DNA from: Prorocentrum cordatum
Lineage: Eukaryota > Sar > Dinophyceae > Prorocentrales > Prorocentraceae
Assembly: GCA_963575745.1 (NCBI GenBank)
Contig: CAUYUJ010019885.1
Location: 89,514 to 153,513, forward strand
Direction: 5' to 3'
DNA length: 64,000 bases
Of the stretch, positions 32,953 to 49,571 are shown piece by piece (positions within the stretch are counted from its first letter, which is position 1; every line of letters starts with the position of its first letter). The translations under genes and the position numbers were made by a program. The notes beneath the pieces were generated by a model. That model had not been told where the DNA came from. It worked only from the letters and a program-made list of their open reading frames with translations, and made no database searches.

Positions 32953-34389
32953 CAACAGACCTCTGGACCCCAGAGGGCGACAATGGCGAACAACATGTCG
33001 CCTTGATTGTTCGATGGCGTCGGAGGTCCTAAATGGCAGGTTCGCTTCGCGTCGACTGGTGGCGATCCCGCCGCGGGCGTTCAACGTTGAGCGCCGGCGG
33101 CGGCCCAGAATCCGTTGACGTTGAACGATCGGACGTTTCGCAAACGGTTGAGCGATCCCTGCAGCGTCATGAACCAACGCCAGGGTCGCCGCGACACGAA
33201 CTTGCAGTAGGCCCCTTCCTCGCAGGAACTCCAGGACGGAGTCAATGCAAGACGTTCGGCGCTTGGCGTGCCAGTAGGTCCCGCCAGCTGAGCTCGGCGG
33301 CCCTTCGCTGCGCCGAAAAAGCGCGCGGCTCTCAAGTTCGCTTCCCCTCGCTTTTCTCCTCTGCCATCCCTGGCCCTCCGTGGGTCTTGAGTAGGTCACG
33401 ACAGGTGCTTTTGTTGCTACCTTCGGCCTCCAAAGGGCCCTTGCTGGGCCGCAGGATCGTCAAAGCGAACGGTTCAGGATGAAATGCTGGCCCCGCAAAG
33501 TGGGTCTAGACTTTTGCCCTCTGTCTGCCCAGGCATCCAGCGTCTCGGAAAAAAGGGACGAAACTCCCCCGCCGTGTTCGGCCTTTGGGCGTCCTCGGTT
33601 TCCGGGGCCGTCCAGCAAACTGCTCAGGATGCAAAGCGGTCATCAGGGCAAGGGGTCGGGCATTTGGACCCTTGCGTTGCAAACAAACAAGGCATCGGAT
33701 GTCCGGCTCTGCTTGTTTGATTCCCCTCTTCTCCCCTCGCCGCTTTCTCCTTTTTGTGTCCCGTTTGTTCCGACGCGCGGCCTTCTTCGAGAGGACGCCG
33801 CGGACACCACAGCTCCGCCTTCAATGCAGGGTTTGCCGCAGGGGTGTGCCGCGGCTCCGTGTTGTTAACTACCAGGGGGGCGGGGCGCAAGGCTTCCACT
33901 GGGTTTGCCGTGGTGTCGGCGGCCTCCATTTGGGCGCGTCGAAAAGAAACGGCGCGGCGACATATCTCTCTGCTTCTGCGGCTCATTGCAAACCCTACCC
34001 TCACGTTGCCCCTTTTGTGCCGAGGTATCGGAGGCCCCCGCTGGGTTCACTTGGCTGCAGACATCCCTCGAGTTCTAGACGCTCTGCGTATATCCCCACC
34101 AGCCTTCGACTCTGCTTCAGTCTCCCCTGCCACCCGCCCGCCGCTAGGCCGCCGCGTGAGGCCTCGGCTTGCTGCGTTAGTCCTAGCCTGTTCGCGCTGC
34201 CTTTTCTTAATTAGTCTCTGCGTAGCCCGCTTTGGCCTGACTCGCCGCCTGCGCGCTCGCCCGCGGCCGCTGACAAAAAAAGTATTCCCACCAGCCCATC
34301 CAGAAACGATGTCCAGGCGAGTTGGGGTGATCAGGGAAGTGCGGGAGCAAAGAGGGGGACGGCCGAACCGTGCGAAGGAGGGATGAGGA
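32953..34389. other. Stretch with no supported gene
   Basis: A short inverted pair GTTCAACGTTGAGCG / CGTTGACGTTGAACG lies at 33077-33128. Otherwise CT-rich unique sequence with overlapping chance frames. Confidence 0.5.
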
Positions 34390-41445: not shown

Positions 41446-42003
41446 TGCTAACGCAAGGCTCCTCACCGATATTGAAATTGAACCATCTTTCCTCCACTCT
41501 CCAGCGGCCGCCCCAGAAGTCTCGAGACCCCCCTCCCCGGGGGGCCGCTTTTTGCCCCGAGTCGTGATATCTTCTGACGGCCCCTTGGCACACAAAAGCG
41601 CTGCCCCCCCCCGAGGCTGGAAGAGGCGAAGCGAAGCTCCGCCCTGGCCGTTCCAGCACGTTGGATGCATGGACCCCCTCTCAACGCAGCGCGCGGGCGG
41701 CCGCCCCCCCCCTCCGCCCAGCGCCGCCGCCAGGCCGCTCTGAGGGCCCACGTGCAGACGTCCTGTCCGGTCCGCCCCGCGACGACACGCCCCGGCGGCG
41801 CCGGGCCGGGGGTTGCCAGCAGGCGTCCTTGGCCCGAGGTGCCCTTCGGCTTTTGCGCCCCATGCCAGAGAGCCGCCCGATCGGGGGGTGGCCTCCGGAG
41901 GTTAGGGGGGGCGGGGGCTCCTCGGCAGGGGTGGCTCTGGAGGCCCTGGGGCCCGCACGGGGACACCTCTGGCAACACCCGGCCAGAGGGTGGTGGCGGG
42001 GAC
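41446..42003. other. GC-rich stretch with no supported gene
   Basis: Lies between (GGA)n and (CTC)n. Frames are open on several strands owing to GC content only. The ORF1 frame runs back through here but has no motif. Confidence 0.5.
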
Positions 42004-42133
42004 GGCGGCGTGGACATTTCCTTCCCTCCTACTCCCTCCTCCCTCCTCCCTCCTCCTCCCTCCTCCCTTCTCCTCGTCCTCTTTCTCCTCCTCCCACCTC
42101 CTCCTCCTCCTCCTCGTCCTCCTCCTCCTCCTT
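42004..42133. repeat. (CTC)n microsatellite, 5' of LINE-B
   Basis: CTCCTCC with CCCTC variants, ending at the exact first base of the SL relict. Confidence 0.95.
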
Positions 42134-42154
42134 CCGTAGTCATTTTGGCTCAAG
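42134..42154 (+). other. DinoSL relict at the 5' end of LINE-B
   Basis: CCGTAGTCATTTTGGCTCAA + G: one C-to-T change from the dinoflagellate spliced leader core. The preceding T at 42133 fits the variable first SL position. It directly follows (CTC)n and lies 110 nt before the ORF1 ATG. It shows that the inserted copy came from a trans-spliced RNA and defines the full 5' end. Confidence 0.92.
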
Positions 42155-42208
42155 CCGTTCTGGCACAATTCATTTTTGTGCATGCGATCACCGATCTTCA
42201 GAACGGCT
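42153..42208 (+). repeat. 10-bp inverted repeat in the LINE-B leader
   Basis: AGCCGTTCTG (42153-42162, starting in the last two SL bases) and CAGAACGGCT (42199-42208) are perfect complements around a 36-nt loop. Confidence 0.7.
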
Positions 42209-42264
42209 GGGTGTTCGCGGGCCAGAGCGGCTCGGACACCCTTTCCTCTCACGGCGGCGCTGCG

Positions 42265-43404
42265 ATGGCTCTTGGTGGCAAGCCTCGTAGCGGCTACGAC
42301 GCCACCAAGAAGTGGACTTGCGGGCATTGCGGATGCCGCAAGAACTTGGGGAACTACACGTGGTGCAAACATTGCGGCAAGAAGTGGACTGAGCCCGTTC
42401 CAGGTGACGGTCAGGCCAGAGGTGGAGGCGTCCCCCGAGGAGCGGCTGCTGCTGAAGTTCGTCGTGCTGCAGCAAACGCAGTGTCGGGAAGGCCTCCACC
42501 CGCGCGGCCTGCTTCCGCCCCGACTGCGACCAAGTCTGAGTTGCAGCAGCTGGTGGAGCTCAGCGCCAAGGTGGGGGACGCGTCTCTGCTATCCTTGGCG
42601 CAAGAGAAGGTGGCCCAGTTGGCGCAAACCCCTCCGCCCCCGCAGCAACGGGCGGACGCGGCCTTCAAAGAGATCCAGCGGCTCGAGAAGAAGTTGGATC
42701 GCGATCTGGACCACGTCCACGGCCTTGAACGAAAGTTGGCTCAGCAGCGCGCGGACTTGGAGGTCACGCTGCAGGAGCTTGAGCGATGCGATCAGGAGTA
42801 CAAGTCTGCCATCTCAGAGCTGCACCTGTCTGTCACGGTCCAGCCGTCTCAGCCACAGCAGGAGGCCCCAGCCGCCCCAGTGCTGCGCCTGCAGGACATC
42901 CTTGATGGCAAGCTGTCCTCGTTCGTGCTCGACGACGGCGACATGTTTGGGTTGGCGGAGTTTCAGGACGTTGCCCCAAAAGACCTACGTGAAACCCAGT
43001 CTCCCAAGGAGCAGTTGTCAGAGCGCATCACTACCCTCACGACGGCCCTGTTCGACAAGGTTCAGGCTAAGTGCGTCGAGCTTAAGAAGAACCACCAGGA
43101 GCAGGCCAAGCGGCTCGCGAAGAAGCGGAAGACGGACGCCGAACCTGCTGCTGCTGGTGCACCTGCAGGAGACGCCGCTGCCGCCTCTGAGGCATCGGGA
43201 GCGTCGGCCTCGGCTGCTGGAAGCAAGGCCGCCCCTGCGCCGCCTGTTGCCCCAGGCGCCCCGCCTTCCAAGCCTGGCGCCTCTGTCCGTGCCCAGGCTC
43301 GTGAGGCGATCAGTAGGGGACCGGACAAGGCGCCCCCCGCGGTCCCAGACGGGAAGGCGCCGCCACCAGCGGGCCCCCCAGCCAGGGGGGCGGCTTGCTC
43401 CTAG
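42265..43404 (+). CDS. LINE-B ORF1: RanBP2-like zinc finger and coiled-coil protein
   Basis: The ATG at 42265 (MALGGKPRSGYDATKK) was chosen because it is the first after the SL relict; the frame runs on upstream only through (CTC)n. 379 aa. RanBP2-like finger at residues ~17-41, W-T-C-x2-C...W-C-x2-C. Coiled coil at ~90-195 (LQQLVELSAKVGDASLLSLA; LEKKLDRDLDHVHGLERKLA). A second helical region around 250-290 is followed by a basic KRLAKKRKTD and an Ala/Pro-rich end. Known LINE ORF1 proteins bind element RNA and form multimers; a zinc finger plus coiled coil fits that. The stop is 8 bp before the ORF2 ATG. The frame is intact. Confidence 0.85.
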   Translation: MALGGKPRSGYDATKKWTCGHCGCRKNLGNYTWCKHCGKKWTEPVPGDGQARGGGVPRGAAAAEVRRAAANAVSGRPPPARPASAPTATKSELQQLVELSAKVGDASLLSLAQEKVAQLAQTPPPPQQRADAAFKEIQRLEKKLDRDLDHVHGLERKLAQQRADLEVTLQELERCDQEYKSAISELHLSVTVQPSQPQQEAPAAPVLRLQDILDGKLSSFVLDDGDMFGLAEFQDVAPKDLRETQSPKEQLSERITTLTTALFDKVQAKCVELKKNHQEQAKRLAKKRKTDAEPAAAGAPAGDAAAASEASGASASAAGSKAAPAPPVAPGAPPSKPGASVRAQAREAISRGPDKAPPAVPDGKAPPPAGPPARGAACS

Positions 43405-43412
43405 CCAGACCT

Positions 43413-44399
43413 ATGCCGAGCCATCACCTTCCTCCTACCCTAGACTCCCATACCTCCTGCCCAGTTTTGGATGCCCCACGGAATACGTGTCAGCATCGCC
43501 CTTGGGACCATGGAGATTTTGTTGCTGCTAATGAGTCTATTGAACTGGAGATAGTGACGGCTAACGGCACGACTTGGAGCTCGCTCCAACAATTGTTGGG
43601 AATTACCTCGGCCCACATCGTGCTCGTCCAGGAGCACAAGCTCATAAGCGCTGAGGACATCAGGAAGGCTTCGGCCTGGTGTGTGCGAATCGGGTGGAAA
43701 GCCAGCTTCGAACCTGGAACCCTGGGGCCTGGGGGGGGCCCTTCGGCTGGGGTCGGGGTCCTGGTTAGGTCCTTCCTCGGGTTGCACCGCCCCGATTGTG
43801 GTCCCACGATTCGGCCCCACAGGGCCCTCGGTGCTCTCGTCCACCTCCCAGGTCAGGCCTCTTTCTACGTTGTTAGTGTCTACCTGCAGGATTGTGTTGG
43901 ACTTAGCGATTTCAATCAGGATATTCTTGCTGGCGTAGCGGCGCTAGCAAAGAGTACGTCTGTGCCGTTCCTTGTCGGTGCCGACTTCAACTTGGAGCCC
44001 ACCGTGCTAGCAGGCTCGGCGATTCACCGAAGGATGGGGGCTGACATTGTGTACCCCCCTGGTGTCGAGGGCACCTGTCGCAGCACTGGGGGCGTGAAGA
44101 TGTTCGATGTCTTCCTTTGTTGTTCCCGCCTGGCGCAGGGGATTAAAGGCGTGAAGATAGTGAGCGATTCGGAGTTAGCGACGCATGACCCTGTCTCCCT
44201 CACCTTCCACCCCTCCCTTGCGTCTCTCAAAGCTTTGACCTTTCGACGTCCCCCACCCTTGCCCACTAGTCGGCCCGCGGGACCTTGCCCTGAGCCCCCC
44301 TTTGAATGGGGAGTTTTGGATCGGTTGGCCTCCCGAGCCCTGGCTGCGGCCGAGAGTGGGGAGACTGATGCTACCCAGTATCATCTTGACACCATCTAA
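43413..44399 (+). CDS. LINE-B ORF2, endonuclease domain
   Basis: ATG at 43413 (MPSHHLPPTL). AP-like (EEP) endonuclease with the expected residues present: N51 (TANG), E74 (VQEHK), Y157, D191/N193 (GADFN), D232 (FDVFL), H258-D259 (THDPV). This domain cuts target DNA to prime reverse transcription. The frame ends at a TAA (44397) that is only in this frame because of a one-base shift. One frame over, SKHWTNTAEKELEGV continues the polyprotein. Confidence 0.88.
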   Translation: MPSHHLPPTLDSHTSCPVLDAPRNTCQHRPWDHGDFVAANESIELEIVTANGTTWSSLQQLLGITSAHIVLVQEHKLISAEDIRKASAWCVRIGWKASFEPGTLGPGGGPSAGVGVLVRSFLGLHRPDCGPTIRPHRALGALVHLPGQASFYVVSVYLQDCVGLSDFNQDILAGVAALAKSTSVPFLVGADFNLEPTVLAGSAIHRRMGADIVYPPGVEGTCRSTGGVKMFDVFLCCSRLAQGIKGVKIVSDSELATHDPVSLTFHPSLASLKALTFRRPPPLPTSRPAGPCPEPPFEWGVLDRLASRALAAAESGETDATQYHLDTI

Positions 44400-46845
44400 A
44401 CATTGGACCAACACGGCTGAAAAGGAGCTCGAAGGAGTGTTTCAGTGCCGCCTTTCGCACCACGGCAGTCGTGGGCGCCAGGCGGGGTTGCACTGGGTCA
44501 GCCTGCTGCAGCCGAGTTCGGCCTCGATGGAAGGTGTTTCGTCGACGTCGCAGTTGGCTTCGCAGCTGCGCTGGCTCAGCAATCGGTATCGGATTTGGCT
44601 GCAGCTGTACGCCTTAGGAGCGTCGACGGCTGAGCCCGAGCACCCCTCCCCCCCGCGTTTTGCTCATGGCAGTATAACCGAAAGGACAGTGTCAGGGCGC
44701 GCCGAGCACAGCTCGGCACGCAGCAGCCATCTCTGTGCCACGGCTGCTGAGCTTTTCAATCCCCCTGCCAGGCTGGGAGAGTGGAGCGGCCACGCGGCCG
44801 CGCTACTTCTGCGCTGCAGGGACGTCGTCACCCATAGCCCTCCTAGTCAGTCCGTCGTCTCTGGGGAACCTGAATATGCCCTGGATGCGGTCTCCCAGGC
44901 CCAAGCTGTGGCCCAGAACGAACATCGTAATGCTGAGAATCGTAATTGGGTTTCATGGCTCAAGACCAACATTGAGTCTGGGGCTCGGCATGCCCATGGG
45001 GTGGTTCGGGGGGCCCCTGGTTGGACCCCCACCACTGCCCTCAGCGTCAAAGGCGAAGTTGTTTCGGACCCACAGGCCCTCCTTGAGTCCGAATGTGCTA
45101 AGTTTTTTGGTTTTTGGCATGCCGAAGACCAGCAGGCCCCCCCCGGCGACAGGTGCCCGCTTTGAGGTGCTCGAGCCCTTGCCCGAGTTGGCCCCAGCCG
45201 ACCTTCGTCGTGTCTCTAGGTCTTTCCCGAAGCACACGGCCACCTCGGTCGACGGCTTCCATGTTAGCCACTTCCAGCACCTCTCGGATCAGGCGCTTGT
45301 CGTCCTCTCTCGTCTCATCGCCACGTTCGAGAAGTCAGGGCACTTGCCAATGCAGATGCGCGCGCTGCTGCTCATCATGCTTGCCAAGCCCGATAGTGGT
45401 CACAGACCGATAGGATTATTCGTGTCTGTGTATCGTCTCTGGGCCCGCGCTCGTCGTGAGTATGCTCGCAGGTGGGAAGCGGCTAACAGCAGGGACCTCT
45501 TCGCCGCGGGCTCCTTCGCCTCGAGCGTGGACACTGTCTGGCGGCAATGCGTACGTAGTGAGAAGGCTGTTTCTTCCGATGTATGCTCCAGTTCGGTTCT
45601 TTGGGACCTTCTCAAGTTTTATGAATCGGTCGACCTGGATCTTCTCTTGCAGCGTTGCCGCCGGCACGGTTTCCCCATGCAGATTGCGAGAGTATGCGAT
45701 GTTGTTTACCGCGCCTGCCGCTACATCGCCATGATCCGCAGGGCCATCGGGCCCAAGTTCGCATGGCGAGGTCTTGTGGCAGGCTGCGGCTTCGCGACCA
45801 CTTTAATCCGTGTCTTCAGCTTAGCTGCCTTGGATGGGCTTAGCTTGCCAAGATCGGTTTCGTTGAAGGCATATATCGATGATTACACCTTGTCGTGCCA
45901 AGGGGCCGCTCCGACGGTCGTTAATGACCTCCTGGATGGGGGCCATTAAGTTGCAAGTGGTCATCGAGGGCGATCTTGGCTGCGCGATCGCTGTCAAGAA
46001 GGCGGCAGTTCTCGCCTCGCATCTTTCTGTTGCTAAGGCCGTGCGCCAAGGTCTTGGCACGGTGGGCGGAGCGCCGTGTGACTCCGCTGTCAACCTCGGC
46101 ATCGACGATGCTGCTGGCAGGCCCCGTCGCGTCGCTCGTCGAGGAGGCAGGTTTAAGGTTCGTAAGACCCTGTTTTCGGCCAAGGTTGCTCGTCTGACTC
46201 GTCATAAGAGAACCCTCGGTCGACGCTCGCGCCGAGTTTTCACGACTGGGCCCCTTGCCAGCCGAACCTACGGTTGCGAGGTGCACGGCACCTCGGACCA
46301 TGAGCTTTTCACCCTTCGGAGAGCCATGGGTCGTTTCTTGCAGCCCTCCGCTGGAGGGAGATCTCTCACGGCAACTTTGCTGTTTGCCGCTGACCCCACC
46401 TGGTACGCGTCCGTCGCGCCCATTGTGAGGTGGTCTAAAGAGATCTGGGCCTGCCTGGTGGGGGCCTACCAGTTCGGCCTCAGCTTGGCCGAGCTCCGCG
46501 GTGCCTGGGCTGTGGGTTTTTCGGGGCCTCTCCAGCCGTGGCGTCGCGTGCGCGGCCCTGCGGGGGCCCTTCGTCTCTCGGTGGGGCGTCTTGGGTGGGA
46601 GATGCCGAGCTTCAGCATGCTCGTCGATGACCTGGGGGTGGAAGTTTCCTTTGCCTTGGTTTCGCCTTGCCTCCTGAAGCGTCTCCTCCGTGCTGCTGTT
46701 TTGAGGAATCTGGAACGTGATTATGGGCGGTCCCTGGGCCTGGACCGCAGAGTCTGTTTCGACGCGGCCCTTGCGGCCATGAGTTCTTTAAAATTCACCC
46801 CCTTCGAGAAAGAGGTCTTGTCTGCCGGGCGCCCTGGGCCAAGGG
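44395..46845 (+). pseudogene. LINE-B ORF2, reverse transcriptase region, frameshifted
   Basis: Three successive frames make one protein: 44395 to ~45140, ~45140 to ~45936, ~45940 to ~46840. The second break is at a C8 run (45136-45143) and the third at a G5 run (45936-45940). RT signs: TATSVDGFHVSHF; MLAKPDSGHRPIGLFVSVYR; VLWDLLKFYESVDLDLLLQR (motif A); GLVAGCGFATTLIRVF (motif B); KAYIDDYTLSC (YIDD, 45872-45883). A connecting region follows (LTRHKRTLGRRSRRV; TYGCEVHGTSDHELFTLRRA). No in-frame nonsense codon apart from those created by shifts. This may be decay or homopolymer errors in the assembly. Confidence 0.85.
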
Positions 46846-48142
46846 TCGAGCCGAGGGCCACGGCTACATCATGCATGACGCGTTGTGCCCGCTGTGCGGC
46901 GTGGCAAGGGGCACCATTTTCCACAGGCCGCGGTGCTGCCAGCGCGAGTCCGTCGCCCAGGCCCGAGAGGACATCTTCGGAGAAAGGTTTCAGTTTCGGC
47001 CGCTGGAGTACGACTCGTTGTCGGATGCTGACAAGATAATGTACACGATGGGGCTGTTTACCCACCCTGGTGATAGGTTCCCACCCCCATCGATGTGCGA
47101 GCCCAGCTATGAGCATTTTGACGATCTTGATAAAGACGATTCTAGAGTTTCGTGGAATATCTTCATGGACGGTTCTTGTGTTCGCTCGGTCATAAGAGAA
47201 TTATCGAGGACGGGGTGGAGTTATGTCTCGGTGTCCGACTCTGGGCAGGAGCTGGGTCATGTCTATGCCCCCCTCCCCTACCCCATTCCCCAAACGGCTC
47301 AGGCTGGTGATTTTGCTGCCTGCACTGCTGCTTGCCAGGATGCTGTCTCTCCAGCTGTGGGGTATAGCGATTGCCAGAATGTAGTAGCTCTGTGGGCCCT
47401 CCCTCGTAGTGAACACTTGTCGTATAAGCGAGTGCACTCGGGTATGTTTGTTTGGACCGCAGACTGTCAAATGGGGGCCATCCATAAGGTGAAAGGCCAC
47501 ATGTCGGACGAGCAGGTGGGTAATGATGCCTATCTGAAGTTCTGTAAGACGGGGAACGACCTCGCCGACCACTATGCTAAGCTTGGGGCCCTAGCTCACG
47601 AGAAGCCGAGCCCTGAGCAGCAAGAGTGGCTCGATAAATGCCTGTCGGTCGTTCGCAAGGTTTTTGTTTTGGCTGCCCGTGCGCTGCCTCTCTGGCCTCC
47701 GCTCGACTTGTCGGAAGCCACTCGTGCGCCCGTCGACCCGAAACCAGTGCCAGTCAAAGTGCCCCATCTTTGGAAGAAGGTGGGTAGCTTCTGGCAGTGC
47801 AATCACTGCCTCACTGTGTGCCGTGGGGTTTTCCCGCGGGATAATTCGAGTTGCACTAGGAAGCATAAGCTCCAGGTTGACGTCCTGCAGCATCTGGAGC
47901 ACAACTGTCTTGGATTAGCGTGTTCGGACGGCGGCATAGTCTGCGTCGGTGTCCGTTGTAAGGCGTTTTCCACTGGCAATTACGTGCGCTACCTGGCTAA
48001 ACCGTGCCCAGGTAGGCCTCATACTATTAGGTGTTCTAAGTATTACTGGGACAGACTTTCGGCTGGCAAGCACCCCAAGCTTTCGGACGTCTGGCTTGAC
48101 GCGGATGCTAACAGTGTTGCTCGTCTCTTTAATACCTCCTAG
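46846..48142 (+). CDS. LINE-B ORF2, zinc knuckle, RNase H and C-terminal domain
   Basis: Frame from about 46841 (GRAEGHGYIMHDALCPLCG), ATG at 46871, to the stop at 48142. Cys/His knuckle C6, C9, H18, C22 (from that ATG). RNase H-like domain: FMDGS (D100), GDFAACTAACQDA where Glu is expected but Asp (D147) is found, SDCQN (D167), KVKGH (H210) and GNDLADHYA (D230). It would remove the RNA strand after copying. Downstream there is another Cys/His region (QCNHCLTVCRG; LEHNCLG). It is one frameshift away from the RT region (near 46830). Ends LFNTS. Confidence 0.85.
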
Positions 48143-48317
48143 GCCTGTATCTGGCCCAGCCTCTCGGTCTCGTGTCGCGGGGGCGTGGCCCTGATATATG
48201 GTTTCCTGGCATGTATGACCCGTCTGTGCCATTTAAGTGCCGTGCTCGACGGCCGCCTGGCTCCCAGTGCCAGGCCGACTGCGGGACGCCGTGGAGAGCA
48301 GCGTAGCGGTAACAATC
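48143..48317 (+). other. LINE-B 3' UTR and 3' junction
   Basis: 174 bp from the stop to GCGTAGCGGTAACAAT, then (CTC)n begins. No poly(A). This fixes the 3' end of the element at about 48317; total length is about 6.18 kb from the SL relict. Confidence 0.7.
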
Positions 48318-48945
48318 CTCCTCCTCCTCCTCCTCCTCCTCCTCCTCCTCCTCCCTCCCTCCTCCCTCCTTCCTCCTCCCTCCGCCCTCCTTCCTCCTAC
48401 CTCCTCCCTTACCTCCTCCCGCCCCCCTCCTCCTCCTCCCCCTCCTCCTCCTCCGCCTCCTCCTCCTCCTCCTCCTCCTCCCTCCTCCTCCTCCTCCTCC
48501 TGCTCCTCCTTCCCCTCTCCTCCTCCTCCTCCTCATCCTCCTCCTCCTCCTCCTCCTCCTCCTCCTCCTCCTCCTCCTGCTCGTGCTCCTCCTCATCCTC
48601 TCCTCCTCCTCCTCCTCCTCCTCCTCCTCCTCCTCCTCCTCCTCTTCTTCCTCTTTCTCCTCCTCCTCCTCCTCCTCCTCCCCTCTCCTCCTCCTCCTCC
48701 TTTCCTCCTCCTCCTCCTCTCCTCCTCCTCCTCCTCCCTCCCCTCCTCCCTCCTCCTCCTCCTCCTCCTCCTCCTCCTCCTCCCTCCCCTCCTCCTCCCT
48801 CCTCCCTCCTCCCTCCCCCCCCCCCTCCCTCCCTCCTCCCTCCTGCCTCTGCCTCCTCCTTCCTCCCTCTCCTCCCTCCTCCTCCCTCCTCCTCTGCCTC
48901 CTCCTCCTCCTAGTCCCTCTCCTCCTCCATCCCTTCTCCTTATAG
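48318..48945. repeat. (CTC)n microsatellite, ~630 bp, 3' of LINE-B
   Basis: CTC with CCCTCC phase slips, the longest CTC tract in the window. Confidence 0.97.
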
Positions 48946-49571
48946 ATAACTCCTCCCCCTCGCACACCAGAGTTGTCTGTAGGGCGGGCTGGGCGTTTCG
49001 CTGGGACTTCCTCACCATTTATGACCCTGAAGCTTAAACAGTGGCAACAGTTCCACATATTGAGGGCGGGTGGTTTTCAACATGTGGGTCTCGCCTTAGC
49101 GCCGCGCACACTCGTTCTAGCAACTTGCAAGCACTCAACGAATTCGGGGCGGTTCCTCCCCAAAATGTGGCTCTCGCCTGAGCGCCGCGCACATTCCTCT
49201 TTTTTTTTTTCAAAATTTGGAAGACGTTCATTGATTCCCATGGTCAACGTGCCAGAAATGGTATTCTGGAAAGGTTCAGGATTATGAGGGTGCAACAGTT
49301 ACGTTTATTCGCGGTGTTGAAATCCCAGGAATGGCGTTTTGGCGCGATTCAGGGTCGTCAAGACGCAACAGTCAGGTTCATCTGTGGCGTCGGAGTCCAG
49401 CGAATAATGTTTTGGCATGCTCCAGGGTTCAGGGTCTTCAAACGGCTGCCTTTCAACGAGGCAGTTCCCTCAGCGGACATGAGCCCTTTTAGGGGCCCAT
49501 GAAGAGAGATCTTGGAAGGAGTGTTTATTCCAACACCGTAGGTGACTCCTGGATTTACACTTGTCCTCCAT
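48946..49571 (-). mobile_element. GGA-bounded element G, copy 2, inverted, two 83-bp units
   Basis: The reverse complement begins at 49571 with AAGTGTAAATCCAGGAGTCA, carries GGGAACTGCCTCGTTGAAAG and two 83-bp units (AGCGCCGCGC at 49098 and 49181), and ends ATAAATGGTGAGGAAGTCCC, GGAGGAGTTATCTATAAGGA. It matches copy 1 (40389-41330) end to end and also has CTC/GGA tracts on both sides. Confidence 0.8.

Follow-up and report, generated by a model that had tools for sequence, protein, structure and literature searches.

A LINE in CTC repeats of Prorocentrum cordatum with spliced-leader and AG 5′ ends

Organization of LINE-B at the locus

A window of 64,000 nucleotides of DNA from the dinoflagellate Prorocentrum cordatum (assembly GCA_963575745.1; contig CAUYUJ010019885.1, here C19036) contains LINE-B, a long interspersed nuclear element (LINE) of approximately 6.2 kb. 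It lies on the forward strand at 42134–48315 and encodes a first open reading frame (ORF1), an endonuclease of the apurinic/apyrimidinic (APE) type, a reverse transcriptase (RT) and an RNase H. A preliminary description, made from the letters of this DNA alone, had the element starting exactly with a relict of the dinoflagellate spliced leader (DinoSL, or SL) behind (CTC)n and passing at its 3′ end directly into (CTC)n, and both observations hold. The upstream (CTC)n microsatellite (42025–42132, called by Tandem Repeats Finder) abuts the relict, which matches DinoSL at 20 of 21 nt (42134–42154); the 22-nt leader has its initial T at 42133, so that the whole relict spans 42133–42154 with one mismatch and forms the 5′ end of the element. 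Matches to DinoSL with three or fewer mismatches are expected 0.00 times in the window (100 shuffles). Some 6.2 kb later, the terminal GTAACAA runs into (TCC)n, which extends from 48316 to approximately 48928 (48316–48928 by the same program).

All parts of the element are on the forward strand. Directly behind the leader and in exact register with it are two decayed 15-nt SL units (42155–42184; 11/15 and 10/15 matches), which belong to the element's own 5′ end; no equally good pair of units occurs elsewhere in the window. The final AG of the leader is also the start of a conserved structured 5′ block of approximately 84 nt (42153–42236), which opens with a 7-bp stem. ORF1 (42265–43404) has a zinc-finger-like cysteine motif near its N-terminus, recognized by eye, and yielded no Pfam family above the cut-off. 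ORF2 is in three parts: an APE-type endonuclease (43395–44399; PF03372, E 1e-5), an RT in another frame (44735–45949; PF00078, E 1.5e-7) and a third part with an RNase H and a C-terminal cysteine-rich stretch, the latter seen by eye (46871–48142). The RNase H match (PF00075, E 9e-5) is just under its curated cut-off (23.1 versus 25.8 bits), while the endonuclease and RT that define an APE-type non-long-terminal-repeat (non-LTR) retrotransposon both score above theirs, in separate frames. As its coding parts are spread over several frames, the window copy is either broken by frameshifts or mis-assembled. The 3′ untranslated region (48143–48315) ends in GTAACAA, and its predicted structure is no better than that of shuffled sequences (z −0.68). 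ARAGORN found no tRNA in the window, so a tRNA-like 5′ end is not supported, and a database search with the RT gave a single relative among the 7997 candidates scored.

CTC repeats as the target of LINE-B

Copies of LINE-B were sought across the genome (4.13 Gb in 21,875 contigs). A search with the 3′ end (query 47700–48316; 40 of 72 candidates scored) gave 41 rows representing 40 places, in 39 of which the 3′ joint was read (C14930 being excluded). A flank was called CTC when at least half of its triplets over 40 nt were of CTC type. By this measure, 31 of the 39 3′ flanks were CTC, all with CTC on the sense strand of the element, and none was GGA. The eight below the threshold comprise three C-rich flanks close to it (L015, L030 and L035), two of ATC type (C16185 and C581), one rich in GGT (C3247) and two in which the TCC or GTCCTC repeat is lost after a few bases (C14087 and C17574). 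A second search, with the 5′ region (query 42155–42700; 40 of 74 candidates scored), also gave 40 places; the matches in C14930 and C8667 start well inside the query, and the 5′ ends of the other 38, window included, were read. CTC flanks precede 32 of these (the window and 31 of the 37 others) and GGA precedes none. The background, drawn from one window and from local flanks, is far lower: 6.1% CTC and 4.1% GGA by the same measure more than 600 nt downstream of copies, and 2.9% CTC and 1.0% GGA among 40-mers of the window. LINE-B shows the hallmark of a microsatellite-specific LINE, most copies lying in one repeat with one fixed orientation, and there is a strong case that the target of LINE-B is the CTC repeat with a fixed strand, as had been suspected from the single copy.

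The family terminus reads approximately ..GCGGTAA followed by an A-rich run with a median length of 4 nt (range 0–19) across the 39 copies, and in 23 of them the repeat starts exactly with TCC after the A run, giving the joint A/TCC that is also seen in the window. Since in 35 of the 39 copies the A-rich tail, taken to begin at the second A behind GGT, is at least 3 nt long, the preliminary statement that poly(A) is lacking is not true of the family; the CAA end of the window copy is a degraded version of its short A tail.

The 5′ end could be read at 26 of the 40 places found through the 3′ end. Among the other 14, ten had no 5′ end in the fetched stretch (L041 being all N and L048 partly N), and C2997, C21641, C19254 and C14930 had a contig end, no such stretch or no 5′ end. 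Target-site duplications were looked for in 26 copies, the window included. They are clear, and end directly before AG, in C18154 (16 nt), C13766 (17 nt), C13936 (14 nt), C14087 (17 nt, one of them mismatched) and, in nearly pure repeat, C11110 (16 nt). C17579 shows 14–15 nt plus three extra bases, the SL-bearing copy C14842 shows 15–17 nt plus extra T's, and C17574 shows 21 nt with one mismatch inside a hexanucleotide repeat. Because the duplications end directly before AG, this dinucleotide is part of LINE-B. Six 5′-truncated copies have a visible break, which by eye joins CTC-rich sequence in four, ATC-rich sequence in one and unrelated sequence in one (L022). LINE-B thus carries the marks of target-primed reverse transcription (TPRT), namely a variable target-site duplication, 5′ truncation and a 3′ tail, and the 14–17 nt duplications together with the prevailing A/TCC joint point to endonuclease-primed integration. 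The idea that (CTC)n belongs to the copied RNA rather than to the target was rejected: in C16185 the AG follows (ATC)n and (ATC)n also stands at the 3′ end, and the position of the duplications directly before AG argues the same way.

Two kinds of 5′ end, spliced-leader sites and a conserved stem

SL is present at six of the 38 LINE-B 5′ ends: the window (20/21), C17833, C14842, C8558 and C1926 (each 21/21), and the diverged C16800 (L083), which is 67% identical to the window and has two SL units, the nearer matching at 16/21. Directly before the common start CCGTTCTGG, the 32 remaining ends have AG in 27 cases, CG in two, GG in two and GA in one. Across the 37 loci other than the window, the exact suffix of SL has all 21 nt in four and just 2 nt in 27; four others have 1 nt, one has 0 nt and the double relict L083 has 5 nt, so the ends fall into two peaks, SL and AG, sharing one join point. 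An origin of the AG end by progressive truncation of SL is unlikely given these two peaks at 21 and 2 nt. The 27 complete ends starting with AG imply another, commoner full-length template. SL directly at the 5′ end, as expected of a trans-spliced retrocopy, is found in 6/38 LINE-B ends and in 20/20 sampled ends of a second family, LINE-C (see below), and the evidence is strong that the SL-bearing copies are retro-copies of trans-spliced LINE RNA. The proposal that a trans-spliced RNA was the template stands for these copies; its corollary, that capping by SL restores the full 5′ end at each round, is not supported for a family in which 27 of 32 ends without SL are complete with AG. The tabulation of flanks and leaders that the preliminary description had called for has a divided outcome: flanks are mostly CTC, and SL is missing from most copies, which it had named in advance as counting against its proposal. 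Judged in that way, the SL half fails for LINE-B and holds for LINE-C.

In a tree built from the final 2.1 kb of 18 copies (four SL, 14 AG), SL falls on several branches. The label requires four changes, of which strongly supported branches force at least three, and a history with a single change is seen in 0 of 200 bootstrap trees. On this phylogeny, SL would most simply have been gained repeatedly in branches of LINE-B.

Genome-wide, the 21-nt DinoSL with up to two mismatches occurs at 33,832 places (16,858 + 16,974), and the reversed pattern at nine. We read 88 exact sites (L001–L008 and L098–L177) of 100 listed, which are not a random sample. SL follows CTC in 36 of them, GGA in 17, other simple repeats in eight and none of these in 27; the corresponding proportions of window positions are 2.9%, 1.0%, 1.9% and 94%. 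Simple repeats therefore adjoin 61 of the 88 sites, and CTC or GGA 53, compared with approximately 4% of window positions. In the one register counted, CTCCTCCTN stands directly before exact SL at 467 places (232 + 235) and its reversed control at none. By shared 12-mers, 46 sites are singletons and 42 form 12 groups, the largest of which (13 sites) is held together solely by a second SL unit; such a unit, in register and with at least 10/15 matches, is found at 17 of the 88 sites. Some sites encode proteins with ORF1-like cysteine motifs, identified by eye.

LINE-C (L178–L199) was traced by a search with the 80 nt that follow SL in L104, in which 40 of 98 candidates were scored, and 20 further 5′ ends were picked by hand. 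SL is present at all 20, two of which have a tandem pair; 15 follow GGA and five follow CTC. The 13 matches over the full 80 nt all follow GGA, while the seven covering 59–73 nt (five after CTC, two after GGA) may have another body. In the two copies whose body was inspected, L199 encodes an endonuclease (E 4.8e-6) and an RT (E 4.7e-15), L198 aligns with it at 87–89%, and both 3′ ends appear to enter the GGA repeat directly, without an A tail. With SL at all 20 sampled ends, LINE-C is a better match than LINE-B for the idea of leader capping at each round. LINE-C also has a hairpin 5′ module situated between the fresh SL and an older SL-like relict.

Several further observations concern SL sites. 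A T precedes CCGTAG in 79 of the 88, so that most leaders read TCCG and share TCC with the repeat, a possible microhomology at the 5′ joint. Three near-identical SL-bearing sequences (L145, L146 and L147) lie within 9 kb on contig C39, outside simple repeats, and are perhaps tandem copies. An SL-tagged group (L100, L120, L129 and L150; GCCATG..CCCGACGAC) has no member in CTC or GGA (0/4) and one in an AT repeat, perhaps reflecting family-specific targets. The window itself holds a second SL relict (20/21; 18985–18965, minus strand) immediately behind (AT)25. An ORF1-like frame comes next, in which a cysteine motif was seen by eye and which soon ends (18985–18080, minus strand); here a further SL-tagged element sits in a simple repeat of another kind. 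Further along the same strand, just downstream of a broken LINE-A, is an open frame of 1109 codons (17647–14318) with no Pfam match.

The 5′ block of LINE-B was analysed in an alignment of 38 copies (35 distinct) anchored at AG. RNAalifold predicts a 7-bp stem starting from AG, two inner hairpins and further stems. In this structure 97.7% of cells are paired and five pairs have changes on both sides, a number reached by none of 500 shuffles, though the structure was scored on the alignment from which it was derived, which favours it; slid controls gave 35–48% paired cells and 0–3 double-change pairs. In 16 diverged copies, identity to the window is 88% over the first 84 nt and 78% over the next 56 nt, and the region 42134–42300 has a fold z-score of −4.0. 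SL-bearing copies keep the stem intact, since the leader has the same AG at its end. A stem beginning at the first base of the element is also a feature of elements with ribozymes like that of hepatitis delta virus (HDV), for which cleavage is here a prediction only. Rfam gave no ribozyme match at E values up to 1 for 41900–49000 or up to 10 for 42130–42290, and neither an HDV double pseudoknot nor its P2 could be placed by eye. Five LINE-C-like sequences have a similar 7-bp stem from AG (94% paired, two double-change pairs), but they were chosen after the stem had been seen, and as many double changes arise in 43 of 500 shuffles. The stem was rejected as a general mark of SL sites: 7-bp stems number 11 at the AG offset and 4–12 at seven other offsets (88 sites each), and folding of the 88 sites pairs the first two bases in 26 cases at this offset, versus 28, 18 and 14 at three others.

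A probable two-template mechanism, its rivals and known systems

Taken together, sequence comparisons make it likely that LINE-B is an APE-type non-LTR retrotransposon that enters CTC repeats by TPRT from two full-length templates, one starting with AG and one with SL. The site at which its endonuclease nicks is probably, we infer, GGA^GGA on the GGA strand, which would account for an element reading in the CTC direction, with TCC after its short A tail and with duplications of 14–17 nt. The template of most copies would be an unspliced RNA beginning with the AG at the element's own 5′ end; that of the minority, which would have arisen repeatedly, would be an RNA with DinoSL trans-spliced onto exactly that AG. 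Because the leader ends in AG, such splicing would leave the first bases of the conserved stem unchanged. The CTC tract before each new copy could serve as a natural polypyrimidine tract and, with the AG, as a trans-splice acceptor for read-through transcripts. That an acceptor is made in this way at each insertion is plausible for LINE-B; LINE-C speaks against its generality. There is good support for a LINE having copied trans-spliced RNA into trinucleotide repeats. A wider proposal is that insertion gives the element its own acceptor, with CTC as the tract and the element providing just the terminal AG, at once the first base pair of a 5′ RNA structure (promoter or ribozyme), so that, the leader too ending in AG, spliced and unspliced RNAs would each regenerate a complete, re-copyable 5′ end, and that the same machinery inserts leader-tagged host messages into CTC and GGA repeats. 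We offer this tentatively, as something that may be true but has the odds somewhat against it.

A number of points weigh against the two-template mechanism. SL is confined to six of 38 ends, eight of 39 3′ ends miss the CTC threshold and the window copy is frame-broken. C16304 has no duplication, that of C14305 is only 9 nt, and the remaining tested copies lie in repeats too pure for duplications to be distinguished. Shuffled SL labels need similar numbers of changes on the tree (mean 3.7–3.8), which is also what repeated independent acquisition predicts, and the tree is unable to separate gain of SL from its loss. The presence of SL in LINE-C despite GGA in front of 15 of 20 ends means that a CTC tract is unnecessary for leader acquisition in general. 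The narrow source of the backgrounds and the scoring of the 5′ structure on its own alignment belong here as well.

Could the CTC flanks be a coincidence in a repeat-rich genome, or assembly joins? CTC repeats are indeed common, at 2.9% of window 40-mers and 6.1% near copies, but not on the scale of 31/39 and 32/38 flanks in a single orientation with no GGA, nor do these explanations fit the target-site duplications or truncated copies whose breaks are CTC-rich in four of six cases and ATC-rich in one. The same joints recur in dozens of copies, several with duplications, so an artefact is unlikely; we reject both explanations as having almost no chance of being right and take the flanks to be real. 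It is also very improbable that the SL copies form one SL-tagged sublineage that simply inherited its leader by copying. Leaders matching at 20–21 of 21 nt in five of six copies would suit such a sublineage, as would a tree blind to gain versus loss, but it is at odds with the four changes, three of them forced, with the lack of any single-change history among the 200 bootstrap trees and with the double relict in C16800, whose identity to the window is just 67%.

Two further rivals concern how the AG end comes about. An internal promoter with its start at the 5′ end of the element is the usual LINE arrangement, and AG could simply be such a transcription start, the SL copies deriving from occasional read-through transcripts. 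The two-peaked 5′ ends and the conserved 5′ block (88% versus 78% identity) agree with this, although it offers by itself no reason for the start to fall on a splice-acceptor AG that is also the base of a covarying stem, and we would give it an even chance. Rather unlikely, by comparison, is self-cleavage, in which the 84-nt block would act as a 5′ ribozyme cutting read-through RNA before AG in competition with trans-splicing. The covarying 7-bp stem starts exactly at AG, the fold z-score is −4.0, LINE-C-like sequences have a similar stem and the trypanosomatid element L1Tc offers a precedent; against these stand the negative Rfam searches, the absence of an HDV double pseudoknot by eye, the 43 of 500 shuffles that match the LINE-C-like stem and the lack of any stem excess over the 88 SL sites.

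The mechanism that we prefer, TPRT of AG- and SL-starting templates into CTC repeats, shares features with several known systems. Dong is a microsatellite-specific non-LTR element, and APE-type microsatellite LINEs are known. The preliminary description was right that microsatellite-specific LINEs exist elsewhere: Togen, in (TG)n, and some HERO families, from groups with a restriction-like endonuclease, are described as microsatellite-specific (PMC4640811). LINE-B resembles them in its insertion into simple repeats and differs in its APE-type endonuclease, its CTC target with a fixed strand and its SL or AG ends. SLACS and CZAR, of the CRE clade, insert into SL RNA genes; they share with LINE-B a link to SL, which in LINE-B is on the copied RNA. 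L1Tc and ingi elements have an APE-type endonuclease, an RT and an RNase H, and HDV-like ribozymes also occur at the 5′ end of R2. In L1Tc, the 77-nt Pr77 is both a 5′ promoter and an HDV-like ribozyme whose cleavage site lies immediately before it (PMC4035085). LINE-B is like L1Tc/ingi in these enzymes, in having an SL-splicing host and in a short conserved 5′ block (promoter and ribozyme in L1Tc), and unlike them in its target and in having no recognized ribozyme.

A further parallel is with the retrogenes bearing DinoSL relicts of Slamovits and Keeling 2008, which are ascribed to RNA that was trans-spliced, reverse-transcribed and re-inserted, with tandem relicts arising in genes through repeated recycling (described in PMC6050394 and PMC3229502). 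LINE-B has the same SL-marked, re-inserted RNA and the same tandem decayed SL units cut at AG; the retrogenes are host genes for which the retroelement is left open, whereas in the present case SL tags the LINE itself, at a defined insertion site. Song 2018 favours LTR elements for such retrogenes, and a LINE link has been suggested for SL-flanked viral insertions in Symbiodiniaceae (PMC10235124). Our literature search, which most subscription papers lay beyond, turned up no account of SL-tagged LINEs lying within simple repeats.

Dinoflagellates recycle many genes via RNA, and the responsible retroelement is stated to be unknown (PMC6050394). Leader-bearing LINEs with a defined target (CTC or GGA, the A/TCC joint and duplications of 14–17 nt) make this question of retroposition testable: retrogenes produced by the same machinery should carry the same joints, as SL sites partly do (53/88 after CTC or GGA). 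The repeat flanks of SL sites, in which LINEs and host retrogenes are pooled, suggest that such LINEs may run dinoflagellate retroposition. LINE-B and LINE-C further provide a marked system for studying how LINEs keep complete 5′ ends. Should the wider proposal, for all its doubtfulness, prove true, LINE machinery would be the sought engine of dinoflagellate gene recycling.

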